In this document: positions 104-17,538 of the stretch, in pieces
How positions within the stretch are numbered: position 1 is the first letter of the stretch
Layout: each line of letters begins with the position of its first letter
Translations under genes and position numbers: made by a program
Assembly: GCA_009885545.1 (NCBI GenBank)
Contig: VFKM01000148.1
Coordinates: 1 to 41,071, forward strand
Direction: 5' to 3'
Length of the DNA: 41,071 nucleotides
DNA from: Flavobacteriales bacterium
GTDB taxonomy: Bacteria > Bacteroidota > Bacteroidia > Flavobacteriales_D > Crocinitomicaceae
Notes under the pieces: generated by a model
Database searches by the model: none
What the model was told of the DNA's origin: nothing
Seen by the model: only the letters and a program-made list of their open reading frames with translations

Positions 104-3100
104 TTATTTTTCTTCTAATTCAAGTTCAGTTTCTGTAACCAAAGTCCAAGTTAAACCAAATAAATCTATTTTGGCTTTTAATTCATCCATTTTATTATCA
201 GGAATTCGATATATTCTTAATTCAATTGATTCCTCAGTTTGAATAAATTCTCTTCTATAATTGTAACGCAACAACCAGTCGATGAAATCACCCGGTAATT
301 TTTTGCTACTAAACTTCACTGAAACAATAGACGATGGCTCATCATTAGCATCTAAAACGTATAGGGTATCAACATCATCCTTGAAATGATAAACTTGTGG
401 TAATTCATCTTTGGAATCTGCGATTGCCGATTTCACATGTTTGTCTATTTCATCATAATAGAAACTTCCATGGCTGTTGTAACGGTTCAAAACCTCACGA
501 GGGAATTCGTCAAATGTTTTCTTTGTAATAATTTGAACTCTTTCTAGTTTCTTTGTAACAACTTGCTCATCAGGGATGATAACTGTAGCAGATATGACTG
601 GGTCAACAACAGTCACTGGAGCAATCACCTTTCCTTCCAAAACACTGGCACCCTTTTCGTCCAACAATTTTTGAGCATCAGCCAATGTTATTCTTTCTCC
701 CTTGTAATAAGCCGTAATAAATGCATCTTGCACTCCTTTAGCAATTGCATCCAGTTTCTTAGGACGTGCATTGTCTATTGAAGTAAACATTCCAGTAGAA
801 TAACGGATTTGCCCATTCGGTAAACGCACTGTCATCAATGGAGTAATATTATGCACTGTATTTGCATTCACAGGTTTGTTGTAAACACCGATTTGAACTG
901 TAAAGAATAAACCTAAATATTTTTCTATCGGTTCAGCTTTCACTGCTCCTGGAGCTTTATTATATGTCAACTCATCCACTTTTATTTTCCTCAAAGTGTC
1001 TTCAAGACCCATAGAGATGGCAGTGTTTGTAGCCATTTCAAGAATTAGCTCATTTTCACCTTTTGCGACACATTCACCATTTGCTTCAAGTATTTTAGCC
1101 TCTGCCAATGAAATTCTTTTTCCATCGCAGTATGCTACAGCGAAAGCGTCTGCATATCCTAATCCTTTGATTTGATCTCTTACCTCTACAACTTTCTTAC
1201 TGTTATTGAAATAACCCGCCATGTATCTTGTAACACCATTATTCAATTTCTCTCCTGAAATCGGATTGAATTCTTTGAATAAATCTTGTGGAATTGGTTT
1301 AGCAAATGCACCAATTTGAACGCGATAAACTAATCCTGTAGGACTCTTAACATCAACTGGAATTGGTTTTGCTGCAGAATAAGTGTTTGTACCTTCAGCC
1401 TTAATATCTAAACCACTTGCAGGAAGTGGAACCAATGCAGCAAGAACAGCCAATCGTTTGATTGGTAAAATTCCTCTTTCAACAAGATTTTGCATTTTCA
1501 TCGCTTCTTCTGTATTCGCTGGCAAAGCTTCCTTTGCAATTTGTTGTTTTACTTTTAATTCACTTAGAAGCGTTTGTTTCTCCGCTTCCATTTGTTTGAT
1601 TTTTTCAACGTTCAATTGAAGTTTCGCTTGATTTTCTTCAGTTGGGCTGTCAATACTATTCTTAACCAATTCTTTTGTAATTGATTTTTCCAAGTTCAAT
1701 TGAGCATCTAAATTAGCAATTTGTTTTTCAACTTCCAATGCTGGTCTTGCCTTCTCTTCATAATTCTTATATTCTTCCGTTGCAGCTATTTCCTGTTCTT
1801 CAACAAAAGAAACACTATTTTTCATTGCATTAGGATCAGTTGTTGTTTCAATTTTTTCTTGTTGAGCAAGGCGCGCATCAATAGCTTCTAGCTGTTGCTG
1901 AACCAAAGTTCGTTGTTGAACTTTCTCTTTTCGTTCTTCATTTAAAGCAATTAATTCTTTTCCTTTTGCCTTAGAAATTTCATAATCCAATTCCTTGATT
2001 ATTCGGGTTAGTTCCCCAACTTGAATTGAAAAACGACGTTTCTTTTCTTCTAGCGTAATGTTTGATTCCAACGACGTAATCCCGTTTTCTTCTTCAAGTT
2101 GTTGTATTTTATTCTCAACAATTGCTTCTTTTAAAATATCATTCGCTTGTTTTTCCTTTTGTAAGGCGGTATTCAACAAGTAATTCTTTTCTTCTACACT
2201 TTTTGTTTCATTTGCTTCTTTTACCAAGGCTTCAACTTCTGTTGACAATGATTCTTGCTGTACAAGTGCCGCTTCAGAAGTTAATTTTGTTTCGTTATTT
2301 AATTGAGATCCTGCTTTCAGTTCATTTGTTTGCGTTTCGATGACTTTCTCTTTATTTGCAATTTCAGCGGTAATCAATTTGTTTTCTTGCGTCGTTTGCT
2401 CCTTTTGAACTTGAGTTAATTCTTTTTGAATAACTTGTTTTTCCTTTGGTGTTAATTCTGGATTCGTTAAATCACTTTGTAATTTGTTTTCTTTTTGATT
2501 CAATTCAGTCAACAAAGGGTCGTTGAATTCATTTCCTTCATTCGTTTCATCAGGGCCAGCAATTCTTTCCAATTCTCCGATAGAAATCTTCCATTGACGA
2601 CGTCTTTCTTGAACTTGCGTCAATTCTTCTTTCAACCAATTTACTTCCTCTTTCAATACTTCATTCTCAGCGTCATTTTTTAATTCGTTTGACTTCTCAG
2701 AAATTTGAGTTGAAAGCGCTTTTTCATAATTTGCAAGAATTGCATCTTGTTGTTTTAATTCCTCAATCGTCTTAAATTCATTAGTCATTGCGGCATTGTT
2801 CCCTTGCAATAAATCTTCTCTCAAATTATTTACAAATGCTGTTTGTTTGATTTCATTTTCAACAACATCAACATTTCCTGTTCTATAATTCTGCTCGTTT
2901 TCTTTGCTTTGAATCAATTCGTTTTTCAATACTTCATTCGCAGCAAGAATTTCTGGATTCTGCTTTTTCGCAAGGATCTTCTCATTGGCTGCAATTTGGG
3001 TTGCAATTCTTTCTTGATGAATGACTTCTCTTTCAGCTAAATCAGAATTTTTCGCATCCGAAGTTGAAGCTTTTAATTTTTCGATATCAGCAGAATAGTT

Positions 3101-6100
3101 TTCGTCAACTTTAGTAATGATTTCGGTTTCCTTAATTTGAGCATTCAATTCCGCATTTCGATCTGTTAATTCAGTTATAACAGCTTTTTGACTAACAATC
3201 AATTCTTGAACTGCTGCTAATTTCTGTTGAACTTTTTCGTCCGTTGGATTCTTGTCTAACAGTTTATTCAAACTCTTTTCTTCCAATTGAAGTTTTGTCA
3301 ACAACTCATTTTCCAATTTGATTTGCTCAGCAATTTTCTTATTCTCAACCATTCTAGAATTCGCCAATTCCTCTTTACGAGAAGTGTAATCTGGTAAAAC
3401 ATCGGCAATAATTTGTTCTTTGTCAAGTGTGTTATCAACAGATTCATTTGAATTGTTCAAGATATTTTTATTCTCAGCAATCAACTTTTCCGTTTCTAGC
3501 TGAATTGCTTCAAGAATTGCCAGTGCCTCTTTTAAGGAATTATCATTTGGTGATTGATTTAATCGTTCCTGAATATTGATTTTTTCAGTTGTCACTTTAT
3601 CATTGAAATCATTGTTCAACTTCAATAATTGCTCAGCTTTTTCTATGTTTGATAAATTACCATTTTCTTCTATACTTTCTTTTTGAGAAATGTAAGAAGG
3701 GTCTATTTCATCTATTTTATTCGATTTCGCTTGTGCAGTAACAGTCGATTCAGATGCTGCATTGTTTTTTTGTTCATTCAATCGTTCAATTGAGGATTGC
3801 AAATCAGATCGAATAGCTTCTAATTTCTTTCTTTCCTCTATTTTCACTTGATCCTCTGGATTGTTCATTAAGGCTTCTTCAATAGAAAACAATGCGTTAT
3901 TGACTTTCGCTAAAAGTGAAATTTCTTCATTCAAGAGTTTTTGAATTCTTTCAGATTCTTCAACATCCGATTTATTAATGTTCGTTATGTTGTCGAAGTA
4001 ATTAGGATCAATTTTATTAATTGTCGCTTCTTTCACTTCGTTACTCACACTTGCATTCACAGAATTTTGGTCAATTTGTTTTTGGCGATTCTCAATATTA
4101 TTTTCAAGTTCTTCACTAAGTGCATTTAATATTTGTTGCTCTTTTTTCAATTCAACAGAAGAAGGATTTTCCATCAATTGATTTTCTATATTTTCCAGTT
4201 GGTCGTATACTTTGCTCAATAATTGTCGATCCAATAATTGAATATTCTCAAGTTTTTCTAATGCCGTTTGATTGCTTTGCTCAATTGTATTTAATTCACT
4301 AAAATATTCTGAATTCAACTGATTAATAATTGCATCTTTCTCTTCTTTGGAAACAAATACAGCTGGTTCGTTAGAATTTAAAACAGCTTCATTTTGAACT
4401 ACTTTTTCTTTAATTTCTTTTTCGATTTGAGCTAAAACTGCTTGTTCTTTCAACAACGATTGATTTCCAGCATCTTTTTCTAATTGAGATTTAACAACTT
4501 GGTTCTTTTGCTGAATCTGGTTTAATAATGTCTTTTCTTCTTCCAGTAATTGTTGTGCTTTTTCCTTATCAGAAATTTCAGTTGAACTTTCAATTTCTTT
4601 TACATTTGATTCATATTCCTCAGAGATGTTATTGATCGCAGTTTGTTTTTCCTGTTCAGTGAAATTATCAATTGGCAATCCATTTTTAAGTGAAGCAATA
4701 TCACCATTGATAGCATTTATATTATTCTCTGTTTCCTTTTTTAATTCAGTTAAAACGATCATTTTGTTTTTGGCTTCAGCGTTGAAAGGATCATTGTCCA
4801 ATACTTTTTGAGCAATTACAATTTCAGCTTGAATTTTATCCAATAATTGCTGTTCTAACTTTAATTCTGAATTTTTCTTTTTCAAATCAGAATCGTTTCC
4901 TTTTGCAATACTTTCTCTTTTCGAACTATAATTAGGGTCTAGCTTATCACGAAGTAAATTCTTTTGTTCAATCAGACTTTCGGCTGATAATTCAACATTC
5001 GATTTACTTTCCATAATTTGAGCACGTTCTTCCATTCGTGATTCAATCAAGGATTTCAATTCTAATAACTTCGTCTTTTCTTCTTTTAGAGATTCATTAT
5101 TCGGTTGTTTCACCAATTGTTTGTCTAAAGCAACTATTTTAGCATCAATTGCCGTCATCAACTTTTGATCTTTTATCTGAAGTTGCGACATTTTCTCTTC
5201 CTGACTTAGTGAAGTATTCTCATTAATACTTACTACTTCTTTCGCATATCCAGGTTGAATTGTTTCAATTAATGCATTTGTTACTTCACTTGACGATTCA
5301 CTTGTTAACGAGTCAGGAATTTGCTTTTCTCTGTCTGCTATACTATTTTCCGTTGTTGCTTTTAATTCAACTAAAGCGGCTTTATTTTCTATTAAAGTTT
5401 CATTTGTTGGATCTAATTCTATCTTCTCTATGACTTTCTCTAATTCTTCTTCAATTTTCTCGATGAGCGATTTATCAATCTCATTGAGTGCTTTTGATTG
5501 TTCCTCATTCGTTAAATCAGTATTCGACTTCACCTCATCAATCTTCTGAGTATAAGTTGGATCTATTTGTGCAATAACTTCCTTACCACTTGGTGCTTCG
5601 TTGGTGTTGGTTAAAGCAAGTAATTCTGTATTTCTTTCAGTAATAGTTGATTGTGTTGTTGATTTAATTTCAGTCAAAGCTTCTTGCTTTCCGAGCAATG
5701 TTTTATCCGTTGGATTTTTTTTAAGTTGCGTGTTGACAGCTTTCAATTCTTTGTCAACAGTCATTAAGAATTTCTCGTCTTCCTGATTAAGTGCTTGTAA
5801 TTTCTCTTTCTCAGTCAGAGAATTATTCGTTGAAATCTGTTCCTTTCTAGTTTCAATCGTTGGGTCCAATTGAGCAGCAATCTCCTTCTCATTCAGCTTT
5901 TCGTTTGTGTTGGTTGAAGCAAGTAATTCTGTATTTCTTTGAGAAATAATTGCGTTGGTGTTTTCCTTAATCTGTGTTAATGATTTTAGTTTTTTCTGCT
6001 GTGTTTTATCGAAAGGACTTTCAGCTAAACCAGCAGAAACAACTTTTAATTCCTTATCAATGGCTGCAATTAATTTTTCATCTTCCTTGTTTAATTCTTC

Positions 6101-8899
6101 CAGTTTTTCAGAATCATTCAAGTTAACATTCGCTTCAATTGCCTTTCTCTCTTTATTGTAATCAGGCTGAATCGATTGAATGAGTTCATCCATATCATTA
6201 GACCCATCCTGCGACACAAGTGCTTCAACTTGTTTATCTCTATTGGCAATATTAATATCTAACGTTTCTTGGTATTTTAGAATTTCTTGTTTCTCTTTAT
6301 TTAAATTTTCATCAAACTTATTGTCAACAAGTAGTTTTTCAATTTCAGCTAATCGCTTATCTAGTAATTTATAGGTATTTCTGTCATTCTCTAAATGTTT
6401 GTAAACCTTATCTTCTTTGGATAGAACTGGATCATCTTGTATCCCTTTTGATGAGGCTGTATATTGCTCAAAAATATTATTCGCTTTCAACCCAGAAGTA
6501 ACGTTTATTCTTTCTTTCAAGGTTGGGTCTTTTTTCTCAAGTTCAAGTATTTGTTGGTTCACGTATGCGGTTAACGTGTTTGAATTAGTTTTTTCTGTTT
6601 CGGCTAACGCTGCACTTGCTTTTTCTTTACTAACAACGGCAATCGATCTATTAGAAATTGCATCCTGTAGAATTTGAATTTGTTTATTAACTAAGTACTT
6701 CTCTTGGCTTTTTTTATCAATTATATTTTGAATTTTATCCCGCTCCTCTTGAATTAGCACTATTTCAGCTTCTTTTTCTGCAATTTTTTGTTGAATTGCT
6801 GGAACCTCTTTGCTTTTAACCGAACCAATTGAGTTTTGAAGCGCTTGAATTTCAATCTCAAGTGTTTTAACATCCTTATTATAGCCATCAACCTTACCTT
6901 TCAATGAACTTATGTCATCGTCATATTTCACCACTTTTTCAACTAAATTTTGAACTAAATCTGTAGAATTATCTTTCAAAATAGTTTTTAATAAGTCTTT
7001 GTTTTCTACAATTAGTTGAACAGCCTCTTTTTCATTCCCTGCTTTAAACAACTCATCAAACTGTTTTGTAATTGCTGTCAGTTTTTGCTGATCAACGCCC
7101 AAACTAGATTTTGAAAGGACTTCTTTAATAGAGTCATTCAAATGCAGCAGGTCCTTCGAATATTTTTTGAGTTCATTTTGCTTGTTAATTAATGACTCTG
7201 CTTCTCTTAATAGAATGTATTTACTTTCTGTATCTTGCGTTTTGTTCGCTTCAGATACTTTTAATTTAATTTGTTCTTCAAGTGCTAAAAATTCGACTGC
7301 ATTTTCTACAACCAAATTATTGATATTATTCCCGATGCTATTAATTAAATTCGTGTTCTCAGATGCTTTTTTCATCTGTTGATTCAGTACATCAGAAACT
7401 TCTACCAGCAATAAATTACCCAATCCTAGCTCATCAAGAATTTCTTTATTGATTTTATCCTTTTGAACTTCATTCATGTCAAACTCATTAATATTGACAT
7501 TTAAATTCGAACGCATTTTTATCACTTCAGCTAAAACCGCTGCAGGGTCATCAACTTCTTCATCGAACAAATTCACAATCTTTACAACCTCTTTCCCTTC
7601 CTCCATTGTATGGATGATTTTTTGCTTTAGAGGTTTGAATTCTTTCATAAATGGAATGGAAACAACGAATTTATATTCTTGGTCACTTCCTTCAACTGTC
7701 ATGATATATTCATACTTTCCTCCCTTTGGGAAAGTGATCAAGTATACAGCTTTGTCATTTGAATTAAATTTCCCAATGATTTCACCATTCGCGTAATCTT
7801 TAATTTCAAAATTGATTCTTTTTATCTTAGGATCAATTTCCGAGAGAAAATTCCCTTTTACCACTGCTAATTGCAACGGCACCCTGTCAACATTCACTTT
7901 GTAAACAAATAATTTACCAGATTCACTCTGTCGTGCAGATGCAAAATAGGCGTCTTTGTTTAATGAATCTACGACATAAAACAGATCATCATCTGGAGAT
8001 GAAACAGCAAAATCCATATTTTCTGGTGGACCAAAAGAATTATTATCGACGTCAAACTTACTGCGGAATACATCGTATCCTCCCATCGAGTTGTGCCCTT
8101 TAGATGAAAAATACAAATAGTTTCCATCGGGGTGCATATATGGGAAATCTTCATCGAATTCAGTGTTTACATTACCTTGAATTGCTTGAGGCATACCCCA
8201 AGAACCATCAGGCAATCTCCTTCGAACATAAATATCTTTACCTGAATTACCATTGTCTCCATAACTTGAATAGTAAATTAATGAAGCATTTTTAGGAAAG
8301 TGAACTAACGGAATATGATTGTTTTTCTTATCTAATTTAGACTGGAAATCTGCTGTGACCAATAAATCCCCACCGATGTCTTTCAATTCGTATACACGAA
8401 AAAATTTATCTATTGTGATCTCTTTTTTCTCAGAAACAATTATATCCGTAATGGTAGTCATTAATCGCTTCCCATTTTGACACATTTGAATTGCCCTTTC
8501 CGTTTCTTCTACCTTATTACCTCCTGGACTTTTTTCTAAATAGAAATTATATTGTTTAATTGCCTCATTGAATTGGTAATTTAAATGCAATGCTTTACCT
8601 AGAAAATAATAAGCATCAGGCGAAGTGGCAGGGTCATTTACAGAAAAAGACAAGTATTTTATTGCTTCTTGCTTATTGTTTGAGTTAAACAAGAGGCAAG
8701 TCCCATATTTGTAATTATAAGATGCGTCTCTTGGTTGAAGGGATAGCAAACGTAAATACAAAGACGTGGCTTCTAGGTACTGTTCTAAATCGAACAGTTT
8801 ATCAGCTTGTGCCTTCATTTCTATCTCTGTTTGCGCCTTACTAAAAAAGGAGAAAAAGATAACAATCAAGAGTATTACTCTATGTTTTTTAATGCTCAC
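104..8899 (-). CDS. Giant exported TPR / PD40 / coiled-coil-repeat protein with two SPOR-like segments (2931 aa)
   Basis: The start codon is GTG at 8899: an in-frame TAA lies immediately upstream and the next Met (residue 28) would lose the signal peptide (IKKHRVILLIVIFFSFFSKAQ). Order of parts: TPR-like helices about residues 30-130; a PD40/WD40-like propeller region about 190-335 (FPYMHPDGNYLYFSSKGH); a short beta-rich segment; then a vast Glu/Lys/Asn/Gln-rich helical region from about 460 to 2450, including about ten tandem ~102-residue repeats at 910-1930. Two SPOR-like segments follow, beginning near residues 2525 (YRVQIGAFAKP) and 2665 (FTVQIGVYNKP), and a C-terminal alpha/beta domain of about 150 residues. 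The TPR plus PD40 front resembles PorE-type T9SS/envelope proteins, but I see no OmpA-type C-terminus. An envelope scaffold or peptidoglycan-linked tether is inference. It lies 46 bp after plsY and one base before clpS. Confidence 0.9.
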   Translation of the reverse strand: MSIKKHRVILLIVIFFSFFSKAQTEIEMKAQADKLFDLEQYLEATSLYLRLLSLQPRDASYNYKYGTCLLFNSNNKQEAIKYLSFSVNDPATSPDAYYFLGKALHLNYQFNEAIKQYNFYLEKSPGGNKVEETERAIQMCQNGKRLMTTITDIIVSEKKEITIDKFFRVYELKDIGGDLLVTADFQSKLDKKNNHIPLVHFPKNASLIYYSSYGDNGNSGKDIYVRRRLPDGSWGMPQAIQGNVNTEFDEDFPYMHPDGNYLYFSSKGHNSMGGYDVFRSKFDVDNNSFGPPENMDFAVSSPDDDLFYVVDSLNKDAYFASARQSESGKLFVYKVNVDRVPLQLAVVKGNFLSEIDPKIKRINFEIKDYANGEIIGKFNSNDKAVYLITFPKGGKYEYIMTVEGSDQEYKFVVSIPFMKEFKPLKQKIIHTMEEGKEVVKIVNLFDEEVDDPAAVLAEVIKMRSNLNVNINEFDMNEVQKDKINKEILDELGLGNLLLVEVSDVLNQQMKKASENTNLINSIGNNINNLVVENAVEFLALEEQIKLKVSEANKTQDTESKYILLREAESLINKQNELKKYSKDLLHLNDSIKEVLSKSSLGVDQQKLTAITKQFDELFKAGNEKEAVQLIVENKDLLKTILKDNSTDLVQNLVEKVVKYDDDISSLKGKVDGYNKDVKTLEIEIQALQNSIGSVKSKEVPAIQQKIAEKEAEIVLIQEERDKIQNIIDKKSQEKYLVNKQIQILQDAISNRSIAVVSKEKASAALAETEKTNSNTLTAYVNQQILELEKKDPTLKERINVTSGLKANNIFEQYTASSKGIQDDPVLSKEDKVYKHLENDRNTYKLLDKRLAEIEKLLVDNKFDENLNKEKQEILKYQETLDINIANRDKQVEALVSQDGSNDMDELIQSIQPDYNKERKAIEANVNLNDSEKLEELNKEDEKLIAAIDKELKVVSAGLAESPFDKTQQKKLKSLTQIKENTNAIISQRNTELLASTNTNEKLNEKEIAAQLDPTIETRKEQISTNNSLTEKEKLQALNQEDEKFLMTVDKELKAVNTQLKKNPTDKTLLGKQEALTEIKSTTQSTITERNTELLALTNTNEAPSGKEVIAQIDPTYTQKIDEVKSNTDLTNEEQSKALNEIDKSLIEKIEEELEKVIEKIELDPTNETLIENKAALVELKATTENSIADREKQIPDSLTSESSSEVTNALIETIQPGYAKEVVSINENTSLSQEEKMSQLQIKDQKLMTAIDAKIVALDKQLVKQPNNESLKEEKTKLLELKSLIESRMEERAQIMESKSNVELSAESLIEQKNLLRDKLDPNYSSKRESIAKGNDSDLKKKNSELKLEQQLLDKIQAEIVIAQKVLDNDPFNAEAKNKMIVLTELKKETENNINAINGDIASLKNGLPIDNFTEQEKQTAINNISEEYESNVKEIESSTEISDKEKAQQLLEEEKTLLNQIQQKNQVVKSQLEKDAGNQSLLKEQAVLAQIEKEIKEKVVQNEAVLNSNEPAVFVSKEEKDAIINQLNSEYFSELNTIEQSNQTALEKLENIQLLDRQLLSKVYDQLENIENQLMENPSSVELKKEQQILNALSEELENNIENRQKQIDQNSVNASVSNEVKEATINKIDPNYFDNITNINKSDVEESERIQKLLNEEISLLAKVNNALFSIEEALMNNPEDQVKIEERKKLEAIRSDLQSSIERLNEQKNNAASESTVTAQAKSNKIDEIDPSYISQKESIEENGNLSNIEKAEQLLKLNNDFNDKVTTEKINIQERLNQSPNDNSLKEALAILEAIQLETEKLIAENKNILNNSNESVDNTLDKEQIIADVLPDYTSRKEELANSRMVENKKIAEQIKLENELLTKLQLEEKSLNKLLDKNPTDEKVQQKLAAVQELIVSQKAVITELTDRNAELNAQIKETEIITKVDENYSADIEKLKASTSDAKNSDLAEREVIHQERIATQIAANEKILAKKQNPEILAANEVLKNELIQSKENEQNYRTGNVDVVENEIKQTAFVNNLREDLLQGNNAAMTNEFKTIEELKQQDAILANYEKALSTQISEKSNELKNDAENEVLKEEVNWLKEELTQVQERRRQWKISIGELERIAGPDETNEGNEFNDPLLTELNQKENKLQSDLTNPELTPKEKQVIQKELTQVQKEQTTQENKLITAEIANKEKVIETQTNELKAGSQLNNETKLTSEAALVQQESLSTEVEALVKEANETKSVEEKNYLLNTALQKEKQANDILKEAIVENKIQQLEEENGITSLESNITLEEKKRRFSIQVGELTRIIKELDYEISKAKGKELIALNEERKEKVQQRTLVQQQLEAIDARLAQQEKIETTTDPNAMKNSVSFVEEQEIAATEEYKNYEEKARPALEVEKQIANLDAQLNLEKSITKELVKNSIDSPTEENQAKLQLNVEKIKQMEAEKQTLLSELKVKQQIAKEALPANTEEAMKMQNLVERGILPIKRLAVLAALVPLPASGLDIKAEGTNTYSAAKPIPVDVKSPTGLVYRVQIGAFAKPIPQDLFKEFNPISGEKLNNGVTRYMAGYFNNSKKVVEVRDQIKGLGYADAFAVAYCDGKRISLAEAKILEANGECVAKGENELILEMATNTAISMGLEDTLRKIKVDELTYNKAPGAVKAEPIEKYLGLFFTVQIGVYNKPVNANTVHNITPLMTVRLPNGQIRYSTGMFTSIDNARPKKLDAIAKGVQDAFITAYYKGERITLADAQKLLDEKGASVLEGKVIAPVTVVDPVISATVIIPDEQVVTKKLERVQIITKKTFDEFPREVLNRYNSHGSFYYDEIDKHVKSAIADSKDELPQVYHFKDDVDTLYVLDANDEPSSIVSVKFSSKKLPGDFIDWLLRYNYRREFIQTEESIELRIYRIPDNKMDELKAKIDLFGLTWTLVTETELELEEK
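3110..6172 (-). repeat. About ten tandem ~102-residue repeats inside the giant protein
   Basis: Each unit begins with [IL][DQ]P.Y (for example IQPDYNKERKAIE, IDPTYTQKIDE, IDPNYFDNI, IDPSYISQKES). It continues with a short Leu/Glu helix (LNxEDEKLL-like), an NP.[DN]..L turn (KNPTDKTL, QPNNESL, SPNDNSL) and a helix ending near ENxIxxRNxEL. Unit starts at residues 910, 1011 and 1112 give an exact 101-residue step, and ten units fill residues 910-1930. Units 1 and 2 are closest: at DNA level, AAGTAATTCTGTATTTCTTT occurs on the plus strand near 5619 and near 5920. Later units diverge, so the duplications look old with one more recent event. Confidence 0.85.
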
Positions 8900-8945: not shown

Positions 8946-9566
8946 CTATTTTTTAAAAAGGTTCATCTTCGCCTCTTCTCCTTTCATTAGTCTAACGATG
9001 TTTTGTCTATGTGCAAAAATGACAAGAAAGCTTAATAAAATACTGAAGCTAAAAAGCCAATTAGAATCTTCTTCAATTACAAATCTAACGACAAGTGGGA
9101 AAGACAATGCTGCAACCATTGCTCCAAGAGAAACAAATTGAAACAAAATGAATACAATTAGAAAAAGTACAACACATATTAAAGCCGCTATGGGCTGTAA
9201 TCCAATTATTACACCTAAAGATGTTGCTACTCCTTTTCCTCCTTTAAATTGAGCAAAGATTGGAAATACATGGCCAATAACTGCTAAGATCGCAGCAATT
9301 ATTTGAATTTGAATAATAAGATCTTTTTCAATTGTTGAATTTAAAAAAATCATCGGTAAAAATGTGGCTAAAGCCCCTTTTGCTATATCGATTGATAGCA
9401 CAAAAATCCCTGGTTTTTTTCCTAATACCCGAAATGTATTAGTTGCCCCAGCATTCTTACTACCGTGCTCTCTTACATCAATATTATACCACGCTTTTCC
9501 AACCCAAACGGCAGAAGGAATTGACCCTAGTAAATATGCAATAATTGAAAAGATTAAATATTCCAT
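8946..9566 (-). CDS. plsY: Glycerol-3-phosphate acyltransferase PlsY
   Basis: PlsY transfers the acyl group of acyl-phosphate to glycerol-3-phosphate at the inner membrane, the first committed step of phospholipid synthesis. The 206-residue length is typical. Family motifs are visible: YLLGSIPSAVWVGK near the N-terminus, HGSKNAGATNTFRVLGKKPG, and FKGGKGVATSLGV, with about five to six hydrophobic membrane segments. Its ATG shares one base with the stop of the 1540-aa gene (TAATG), which suggests translational coupling. It sits between two very large exported proteins of unknown function, an unusual place for this housekeeping enzyme. Confidence 0.96.
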   Translation of the reverse strand: MEYLIFSIIAYLLGSIPSAVWVGKAWYNIDVREHGSKNAGATNTFRVLGKKPGIFVLSIDIAKGALATFLPMIFLNSTIEKDLIIQIQIIAAILAVIGHVFPIFAQFKGGKGVATSLGVIIGLQPIAALICVVLFLIVFILFQFVSLGAMVAALSFPLVVRFVIEEDSNWLFSFSILLSFLVIFAHRQNIVRLMKGEEAKMNLFKK

Positions 9567-15035: not shown

Positions 15036-15784
15036 TAAAACGATTTTACTATTGAAATGAATGTTTCGGTCTTTAAAGATGCGCCACCAATGAGGCCACC
15101 GTCTACATTTGGACAGGCAAATAACTCATTTGCATTAGATGCGTTACAACTTCCACCGTATAAAATTGAAATCGAATTTGCTATCTCTTGGTTATAACAT
15201 TCAGCAACCCACATTCGAATAGCGCAATGCATTTCTTCAGCTTGCTCAATCGTTGCAGTTTTACCTGTTCCAATCGCCCATATAGGCTCATAAGCAATAA
15301 TACATTTTTGAATTTCCGAATTCGAAAGGTGAAACAAACTATCAATAAGTTGTTGTTTAACGTACAACGATTGTGTGTTCCCTTCTCGAATACTCAAAGG
15401 TTCACCACAACAAAACACAACTCCAATTTCATGTTCAATTGCCGAGTCAACTTTTAGTTTAATCAGCTCATTTGACTCTTGAAAAATTTCACGTCGCTCG
15501 CTGTGACCAATTAAAGCATGGGTAGCTCCACAATTCTTAATTTGAGAAATAGAAACTTCTCCAGTAAAAGCACCGCTTTCTTTTGGGTAAAAATTTTGAA
15601 CACCAACTTTTAAATGACTTTTTATCTTATCTATTTCCACTAAAAATAAAGTTGGTGGAAAAATCAATAGTTCCACATCCAATATATCTTTGGCTTCTGC
15701 AGCGATATCCTCAACAAGTTGAATAGCATCATTTAATTGCAAATTCATTTTCCAATTGCCTGCAACAATTTTTTTTCTAATCAT
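15035..15784 (-). CDS. tpiA: Triosephosphate isomerase
   Basis: Interconverts dihydroxyacetone phosphate and glyceraldehyde-3-phosphate in glycolysis and gluconeogenesis. The 249-residue TIM barrel shows all catalytic signatures: AGNWKMN (substrate-binding Asn and Lys), ALIGHSERR (catalytic His), IAYEPIWAIGTGKTAT (catalytic Glu and the flexible phosphate loop) and ILYGGSCNASNANE (phosphate binding). Its ATG overlaps the stop of the upstream DoxX-like gene as ATGA. The downstream product, dihydroxyacetone phosphate, feeds glycerol-3-phosphate synthesis, a loose metabolic link to plsY in the same operon. Confidence 0.98.
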   Translation of the reverse strand: MIRKKIVAGNWKMNLQLNDAIQLVEDIAAEAKDILDVELLIFPPTLFLVEIDKIKSHLKVGVQNFYPKESGAFTGEVSISQIKNCGATHALIGHSERREIFQESNELIKLKVDSAIEHEIGVVFCCGEPLSIREGNTQSLYVKQQLIDSLFHLSNSEIQKCIIAYEPIWAIGTGKTATIEQAEEMHCAIRMWVAECYNQEIANSISILYGGSCNASNANELFACPNVDGGLIGGASLKTETFISIVKSF

Positions 15785-17538
15785 TTTAACATTCCATTAT
15801 TTTTCAACCATTCAACAGTTGGAATTGAGCGGTGTGGATATTTTGCCATTACAATTCCTTTTTTAATAATAAGTAAGGAAGGATTTGAACGAGATACTGA
15901 CTTCAAACCGGTTCCATCATTTAACAATACAGGGACATCGAATTTATTTACTTTGCGGAAAGAATTGATTTCGTTTCTACTCGCATTTGTTATCATCACA
16001 AATGAAATATCCTTTGATTTACAATAAGAGTAGATTGCTTTCATACGGTTAATTTCGTTCCAATTGGCCGTTGTCAAATTTTGCGCATTTACAATAACAA
16101 CAAAATTTTCTCTGACAATTTCCTTTTTAAATGAAAGGGTTGTTTCACTTGGATTATTTCTTGATTTTAATGAAACAAAAGAAAGATTAAGTTCACTTTT
16201 GGTTAAATCTTTGACCCTTATGAACGGATCAAATTGATCTGAAATTGTTGGATCAACTGAAGCAATTATAACTTTTACTTGTTGGTCAACAACAGCATAT
16301 TTTTTCTCATCCCACAATTTAGCATTCGATTCAGAAGTATATTCCTGCTGAGTATATGATTTTTTAACGCCTGTTTTTTTATTTTTTACAACATATAAAA
16401 CTTCTTTCACTCCATCTTTCCCATCATTCATCTGCCACAATAAATTTTTCCCTTCTGCGAAAGGACTAAAATCTTTTAGGGGTGCATACAGTAATACATA
16501 TCCAATAAAGATTGAGCTCAAAACAATTAAGAACAAGGAACTTCCAAAATGATTGCCTAAAAAATATCCTCCTCGATTACGGACCCAGAGAGAACCAATT
16601 ATGGAAATGAGCGCAAAAACAATTGGGAAATACCAACCAAAAACTACTGAAAGACCAGATACAAATAATAGAGTGACAATGATAAATTTAATGTTTTGTT
16701 TTTTCGTATTTGGAATGATTATTCGTTGACTTATAAAAATCCAAAATACTAAATACAGAAGAACGATATCCTTCCAAAGTGATTCAGAAGGAGTTAAAGA
16801 ACGCCCAATTGAACCTTTCAGTGCATCGCCAAAACAGCCACAATCAGAAACGCATTGCGGATGTTTCCATTCTTCAACTACAATTTCATTTGCCGTTTTT
16901 GAAACAATTTTAATTCTCTTATTTAACTTAGAGTCTTTGAGTTTGATTTGTGCAATTGAGCTTTCAGTTTGATACGTATCTCTATCTAGAAAAGAATCCT
17001 TTGAATTACAACTCGCCGTATGCGAAGTTAAAAACGTAAAGAACAACATCATCAACGCTAACAAATAGGAAACTAGTTTTATTTTTCCACCGATGATAAC
17101 TAAAACCCCCAGAATAATCTCTATGATACAAATAAAGATGGATAAGGTTAATGCCGAATCGACTAAAAATTCTAAGGAAAAACCAGACATACCAAATAAT
17201 TCCTTGATGCGATAAGCTAATGCCCCGTCTTCAAAATATTCTTCCAATTTATAGGCAAAACCAATTGGGTCATTTGCTTTAACTAAACCTGAAACAATAA
17301 ATAAACTTCCAACAATTGCTCGTGCAACATTGGCAATCATTAAACGACCTTGAAAAACAAAAATACCTGCAGCACTTAAAGCTAGGATAATGTATCCCAA
17401 AAAATTAAATAAAAGAAAATAATCCTGAAACGCAGCATGAGATCCTATTACAACCAATGAGAGACCACATAAATTAAATATCACAAACAGGACATTAAAT
17501 ACCATTGACCTTCCTTGAACTGTTGCTTTTTGTTTCAT
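15781..17538 (-). CDS. DoxX/BT_3928-family membrane protein with thioredoxin-like C-terminal domain (585 aa)
   Basis: The N-terminal ~370 residues contain about nine hydrophobic segments, including a DoxX-like bundle (ANVARAIVGSLFIVSGLVKANDP). The motif CVSDCGCFGDALKG is characteristic of BT_3928/MauE-like membrane proteins. After a last membrane segment near residue 350 come about 220 soluble residues. The final ~110 (ENFVVIVNAQNLTTANWNEI through LLIIKKGIVMAKYPHRSI) have the strand-helix pattern of a thioredoxin fold but no CxxC pair. The family is linked to electron transfer or envelope redox only by analogy, and the molecular role is unknown. It starts 7 bp after DUF1599 and overlaps tpiA (ATGA). 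The DUF1599-DoxX-tpiA order is familiar in Bacteroidota. Confidence 0.85.
   Translation of the reverse strand: MKQKATVQGRSMVFNVLFVIFNLCGLSLVVIGSHAAFQDYFLLFNFLGYIILALSAAGIFVFQGRLMIANVARAIVGSLFIVSGLVKANDPIGFAYKLEEYFEDGALAYRIKELFGMSGFSLEFLVDSALTLSIFICIIEIILGVLVIIGGKIKLVSYLLALMMLFFTFLTSHTASCNSKDSFLDRDTYQTESSIAQIKLKDSKLNKRIKIVSKTANEIVVEEWKHPQCVSDCGCFGDALKGSIGRSLTPSESLWKDIVLLYLVFWIFISQRIIIPNTKKQNIKFIIVTLLFVSGLSVVFGWYFPIVFALISIIGSLWVRNRGGYFLGNHFGSSLFLIVLSSIFIGYVLLYAPLKDFSPFAEGKNLLWQMNDGKDGVKEVLYVVKNKKTGVKKSYTQQEYTSESNAKLWDEKKYAVVDQQVKVIIASVDPTISDQFDPFIRVKDLTKSELNLSFVSLKSRNNPSETTLSFKKEIVRENFVVIVNAQNLTTANWNEINRMKAIYSYCKSKDISFVMITNASRNEINSFRKVNKFDVPVLLNDGTGLKSVSRSNPSLLIIKKGIVMAKYPHRSIPTVEWLKNNGMLK

Follow-up and report, generated by a model that had tools for sequence, protein, structure and literature searches.

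A giant exported protein with a tandem array of predicted helical hairpins whose number differs between related species of Crocinitomicaceae

The giant gene and its neighbours

The window, which is the whole 41,071-nucleotide stretch of DNA that was analysed (contig VFKM01000148.1 of a Flavobacteriales bacterium of the family Crocinitomicaceae), carries on its reverse strand the gene of a giant protein (Table 1). The polypeptide consists of a signal peptide, a TPR region, a PD40 region, a segment that resembles a carboxypeptidase-regulatory-like domain (CRD), a coiled region, an 11-unit helical array, a helical region, two SPOR domains and a C-terminal domain. Homologues were found in all 40 relatives searched, the weaker matches including other PD40 proteins. 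There is no cysteine in residues 1-22 and hence no lipobox in the signal peptide, so membrane attachment of the protein must come via a partner. Literature searches for a giant protein of Crocinitomicaceae found nothing, and the papers searched contain no experiments on where members of its family are located, what they bind or what their deletion does.

The gene plsY, which has no part in the mechanism proposed below, separates the giant gene from the upstream gene of P0003, an exported protein. P0003 is present in 93 of 100 genomes of the order and, where a genome has both, usually lies no more than 20 kb from the SPOR pair (41 of 59 genomes). Sequence searches of Pfam, NCBIfam and the PDB gave no match to it. 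As a conserved neighbour, P0003 is the likeliest candidate for a partner of the giant protein. Farther away, at 15781-17538 on the reverse strand and near tpiA, the window encodes a 585-residue membrane protein with a MauE/DoxX-like N terminus.

Table 1. Features of the giant gene and its upstream neighbours. Positions are those of the window; residue r of the giant protein starts at 8899-3(r-1).
Feature	Residues	Window positions	Strand	Basis or remark
Giant gene	2931 aa	104..8899	-	Open reading frame
Signal peptide (...FFSKA/QT)	1-22	8834..8899	-	Read from the sequence
TPR-like region	~30-128	8516..8812	-	PF13432/PF13431 below cut-off; phmmer to designed TPRs 7e-18; above cut-off in one relative
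PD40 / PorE-like propeller region	205-349	7853..8287	-	PF07676 above cut-off; NF052230 77 bits
CRD-like segment	~336-404	7688..7894	-	Weakest assignment; from the alignment to the CRD part of the PorE/CHU_0125-like paralogue
Unit 0, divergent first repeat	~809-898	6206..6475	-	15 bits (profile from the window alone); E=5e-11 (profile from the wider family)
Unit 1	910-1010	5870..6172	-	Unit profile
Unit 2, copy-number hot spot	1011-1111	5567..5869	-	Comparison with relatives
Unit 3	1112-1213	5261..5566	-	Unit profile
Unit 4	1214-1319	4943..5260	-	Unit profile
Unit 5	1320-1424	4628..4942	-	Unit profile
Unit 6	1425-1527	4319..4627	-	Unit profile
Unit 7	1528-1629	4013..4318	-	Unit profile
Unit 8	1630-1731	3707..4012	-	Unit profile
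Unit 9	1732-1833	3401..3706	-	Unit profile
Unit 10, most divergent of the ten	1834-1930	3110..3400	-	71 bits; leave-one-out E=6.9e-7
SPOR domain 1 (YRVQIGAF)	~2520-2608	1076..1342	-	PF05036 E=0.13; fold and profile matches to 1x60
SPOR domain 2 (FTVQIGVY)	~2663-2753	641..913	-	Same strand/helix order in the model; profile family
C-terminal alpha/beta domain	~2786-2931	107..544	-	AF2 secondary structure; present in the alignment of relatives that underlies the C-terminal model
plsY (glycerol-3-phosphate acyltransferase)		8946..9566	-	PF02660 7e-57
P0003	1540 aa	9566..14188	-	Candidate partner of the giant protein

The repeat unit, its predicted fold and its copy number

The array is composed of ten units of about 101-106 residues, which occupy residues 910-1930 (window 3110-6172), and a divergent eleventh unit (unit 0) ahead of them. 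The unit profile finds the ten in the giant protein at 71-97 bits, plus a weak match at residues 809-897, and profiles made with one unit left out recover each omitted unit with E-values of 6.9e-7 to 6.2e-21 (Z=10000). The BLOSUM62 autocorrelation peaks at a lag of 101 residues, where it reaches 0.174; the same residues shuffled 500 times give -0.350 +/- 0.037. The first-pass annotation, made from the letters of the DNA, had described about ten units at 3110-6172 with first steps of exactly 101 residues. The coordinates turned out to be correct, the spacing of the first steps is as described (the remaining steps are 102-106 residues), and the periodicity lies far outside the shuffles. Of the motifs proposed at that time, the start motif and the NP.[DN] turn have held, but the ENxIxxRNxEL ending is merely a loose tendency. 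Unit 0, the extra short helix described below, and the PorE-like and SPOR ends of the protein, which hint at its function, had been overlooked.

The consensus of 362 unit matches reads [E/Q/K]-I-.-P-.-Y ... L[ST]..EK ... L ... L...P ... L ... L..L ... I. Units of the giant protein are mostly 17-28% identical to each other, and the array is acidic, with a net charge of -74. Unit 0 is 71-74% identical to its orthologues in the two closest species.

In an AF2 model of three consecutive units (pLDDT 82.8, pTM 0.67), each unit is made of a short helix, a helix of about 31 residues, the NP.[DN] turn, a second helix of about 31 residues and a short connecting helix. Coevolution among 340 units from many species is independent of the model. 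Of its 30 strongest couplings, 18 fall on an antiparallel ridge, compared to 2-6 in column-shuffled nulls, and the short helix is coupled to helix A. The two approaches agree on the predicted fold, an antiparallel hairpin of about 31+31 residues that turns at NP.[DN] and carries an additional short helix at the base. On their evidence a continuous coiled coil is rejected for the array, as the first-pass annotation had anticipated in suggesting a hairpin module. Contacts between units are another matter: coevolution across 256 consecutive unit pairs shows no clear pattern, so that a stiff rod is not supported and we propose no geometry for one. By arithmetic alone, the array would reach about 20 nm with the hairpins side by side and about 55 nm with them end to end.

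Neither in the window protein nor in the other arrays tested does any Pfam family match the unit at its cut-off, and no NCBIfam or PDB family covering the unit was found. The PDB sequence matches are mostly to designed coiled coils and TPRs, and a fold search of the PDB with the three-unit model returned nothing at E<=0.001, the best TM-scores being about 0.4, to designed proteins. An array of TPRs was considered and rejected because the period of 101-106 residues with helices of about 31 residues does not fit a 34-residue repeat; on the arrays, all TPR families stay below their cut-offs. The earlier remark that no named family has such a repeat thus stands, none of the PDB matches indicating homology. 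As judged from these comparisons, the repeat forms a new family of an already known kind.

The unit is present in 83 of 120 genomes of the taxonomic family and in 21 of 100 genomes of the order, where the open frames that contain it are 2005-3551 residues long with one exception of 1357 residues. In a sample of 248 genomes of the phylum it was found solely in the window's own genome, always within the giant open frame. Throughout the genomes searched it is confined to one protein family.

Among the 27 relatives with a complete protein and three or more units, the number of units per protein ranges from 3 to 15. Protein length follows 1764 + 101.9 residues per unit (r=0.86, n=27), a correlation that is partly built in, since the units are part of the length; it bears out, for the length of the protein, the earlier suggestion that length depends on copy number. 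The array mostly starts near residue 806-841 and is followed by 696-1272 residues. The flanks are nearly constant while the number of units varies.

The nearest relatives differ at a single position of the array. Unit 2 is missing in one species (G022), single in the window genome, and present in two copies in a third (G005) and in four copies in a fourth (G002). The two copies in G005 are 95% identical in amino acids and 96% in nucleotides, and the four in G002 share 78-92% of their amino acids. Every other unit of G005 and G022, the two closest species, is a one-to-one orthologue with 62-85% identity. The dN/dS ratio is 0.03-0.18 wherever it can be estimated, dS being often saturated, and the protein is apparently under purifying selection. 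The dN of units 4-10 is higher than that of the PD40 or SPOR ends. Two genomes of the same genus (G006 and G017) keep the protein without a recognisable unit, hence the array is not essential for the core role of the family. A relative of a different lineage (locus L060, 3527-11311) has four near-identical consecutive units, apparently the product of a recent expansion of independent origin.

The two ends of the protein

The N-terminal end resembles PorE, a protein with peptidoglycan-binding ability that has been proposed to anchor the type 9 secretion system (T9SS) to the cell wall (PMC7192894), and CHU_0125, the loss of which impairs the integrity of the outer membrane (PMC5891637). BLASTP aligns this end collinearly (E=6e-28) with a protein of the same genome (L133, 1242-3365; G000:C39), which is a 707-residue TPR-PD40-CRD-OmpA protein of the PorE/CHU_0125 type. 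The PorE order of TPR, PD40 propeller and CRD is found in the giant protein. Its CRD, the weakest of the three, has no direct match in the giant protein itself, and PF13620 is weak in two relatives. The giant protein cannot be called a PorE. The NF052230 model scores 77 bits, over residues 205-349 only, compared to a curated cut-off of 600, and the OmpA_C-like peptidoglycan-binding domain (PF00691) was found neither in the giant protein nor among the matches listed for its relatives. PorE is an outer-membrane lipoprotein, which the giant protein, lacking the lipobox cysteine, is not.

The C-terminal end is predicted to have the SPOR fold. PF05036 gives 13.1 bits on the giant protein, below the curated cut-off of 21; at E<=1 the model finds 11 of 17 proteins, the best at 2e-5. 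The AF2 model of this end (pLDDT 75, pTM 0.32) matches the SPOR domain of CwlC (1x60) in Foldseek with a probability of 1.00, a TM-score of 0.64 on the target, 27% identity and E=0.045. This was the 14th match, behind other, mostly ferredoxin-like, folds, and none of the matches reached E<=0.001. A sequence profile finds the same structure at E=0.005. The glutamine and phenylalanine of the SPOR glycan site, through which denuded glycan is bound (PMC6895207), have counterparts in both domains. Across 14 proteins, Q2528 and F2532 of the first domain are invariant, within an invariant Q/G/F set, and in the second domain Q2669 is invariant and the other site holds Y or F. In 80 of 80 relatives scored the protein has two or more SPOR domains, a count that reflects constancy of number and not presence, because these relatives were fetched with the SPOR pair as the query. 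The alpha/beta domain that follows the pair is possibly a third SPOR-like fold. One relative (G014:C41:3407-6895) has at least five tandem matches to the second SPOR region in one frame, the second example of an expansion by whole domains within this protein. No SPOR protein of Fluviicola or F. johnsoniae was found in the papers searched, nor was the combination of a PorE-like N terminus, a helical array and SPOR domains.

Possible roles of the array and related systems

The favoured reading, with a probability of roughly 0.6, is that the array is a modular periplasmic spacer or tether between a scaffold on the outer-membrane side and denuded, septal peptidoglycan. In an exported periplasmic protein, the 10-11 hairpins in series would keep the two ends apart. 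The N terminus, with its TPR, PD40 and CRD-like parts, aligns collinearly with scaffold proteins of the PorE/CHU_0125 type, which are associated with the outer membrane, and would dock to partners on that side. The division septum is enriched in denuded peptidoglycan, to which the SPOR pair would bind. By gaining or losing units as a whole, the tether would change in reach and keep its ends as they are. That the tether is periplasmic, that it is septal and that reach is what matters are inferred from this architecture.

Two other roles for the array have to be weighed against the tether. In one, the array is a binding scaffold whose positionally conserved units each bind a partner of their own, such as P0003 or cell-wall enzymes, and its length is a by-product. 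The one-to-one orthology of the units in the closest species, which have not been homogenised, and the identity of mostly less than 30% between paralogous units are expected of specialised positions, and the conservation of P0003 nearby fits as well. However, the couplings within units are dominated by the hairpin core, the number of units ranges from 3 to 15 with none recognisable in some relatives, and units 4-10 have the higher dN noted above, which together make a scaffold unlikely. A long coiled coil or flexible linker of low constraint, with no specific fold and a period that merely records tandem duplication, is less probable still. It would account for the low pairwise identity, the acidic composition, the PDB matches to designed proteins and the lack of clear couplings between units, but not for a register of about 102 residues held across genera with conserved P, Y, L, EK and P positions, nor for dN/dS values below 0.2 where estimable, the antiparallel coevolution ridge and the confident AF2 hairpin.

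As to ancestry, the unit might be a distant branch of the repeats of Gram-positive surface proteins of the DUF1542 type (PF07564). At E<=0.1 this model finds 8 of the 82 single units, the best at 1.3e-5, and the start of the DUF1542 helix is similar to that of the unit (L[ST]..EK..A/L...D). In the arrays tested, however, the scores of 17.4 (the window array) and 16.4 bits stay below the curated cut-off of 24.3, so that membership is rejected, and the matches cover 41 or 64 of 77 model positions; helical composition in common would suffice to produce them. Such a descent is very improbable.

Returning to the tether, the data define a repeat unit that Pfam lacks and for which the PDB offers no recognised relative. 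The protein family that contains it spans much of the order. Sister species that differ by whole units, with nearly constant ends, provide a natural series of lengths on which the idea of envelope tethers as rulers could be examined. The analysis also reveals a PorE-like architecture in which SPOR domains take the place of the OmpA of PorE, and it draws attention to P0003, a conserved, unstudied neighbour. A bolder version is rather doubtful as a whole: the unnamed family would be an evolvable periplasmic ruler of Bacteroidota, in which hairpins, their number tuned by duplication at one position, space a PorE-like scaffold from a SPOR pair and so set the reach from the outer membrane to septal peptidoglycan; P0003 would be its dedicated partner.

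The closest known systems each resemble a part of the giant protein. PorE (NF052230) and the CHU_0125-type Pal (NF053607) share with it the signal peptide, TPR, PD40 propeller and CRD-like segment in the same order, but have an OmpA_C end and a lipobox, whereas the giant protein has a helical array of about 1000 residues and the SPOR pair. FtsN, DamX, RlpA and CwlC (PF05036) are like its C terminus in the SPOR domains with conserved Q and F and, in the case of CwlC, in the fold match; unlike theirs, the SPOR pair here is joined to a PorE-like N terminus and a helical array. DUF1542 and other helical repeats of surface proteins also build long proteins from tandem helical units and have weak local similarity to the array, but the DUF1542 profile has 77 positions compared to about 102 residues in the unit, is sub-threshold on the arrays, and the giant protein is predicted to be periplasmic. 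In its proposed role the giant protein is compared, by analogy, with Lpp and other outer-membrane-to-wall spacers, which link the outer membrane to peptidoglycan and set the distance between them (PMC8824477). A relationship in sequence to these spacers is not expected. The giant protein probably works like such a tether, as a chain of hairpins where Lpp is a single long coiled coil.
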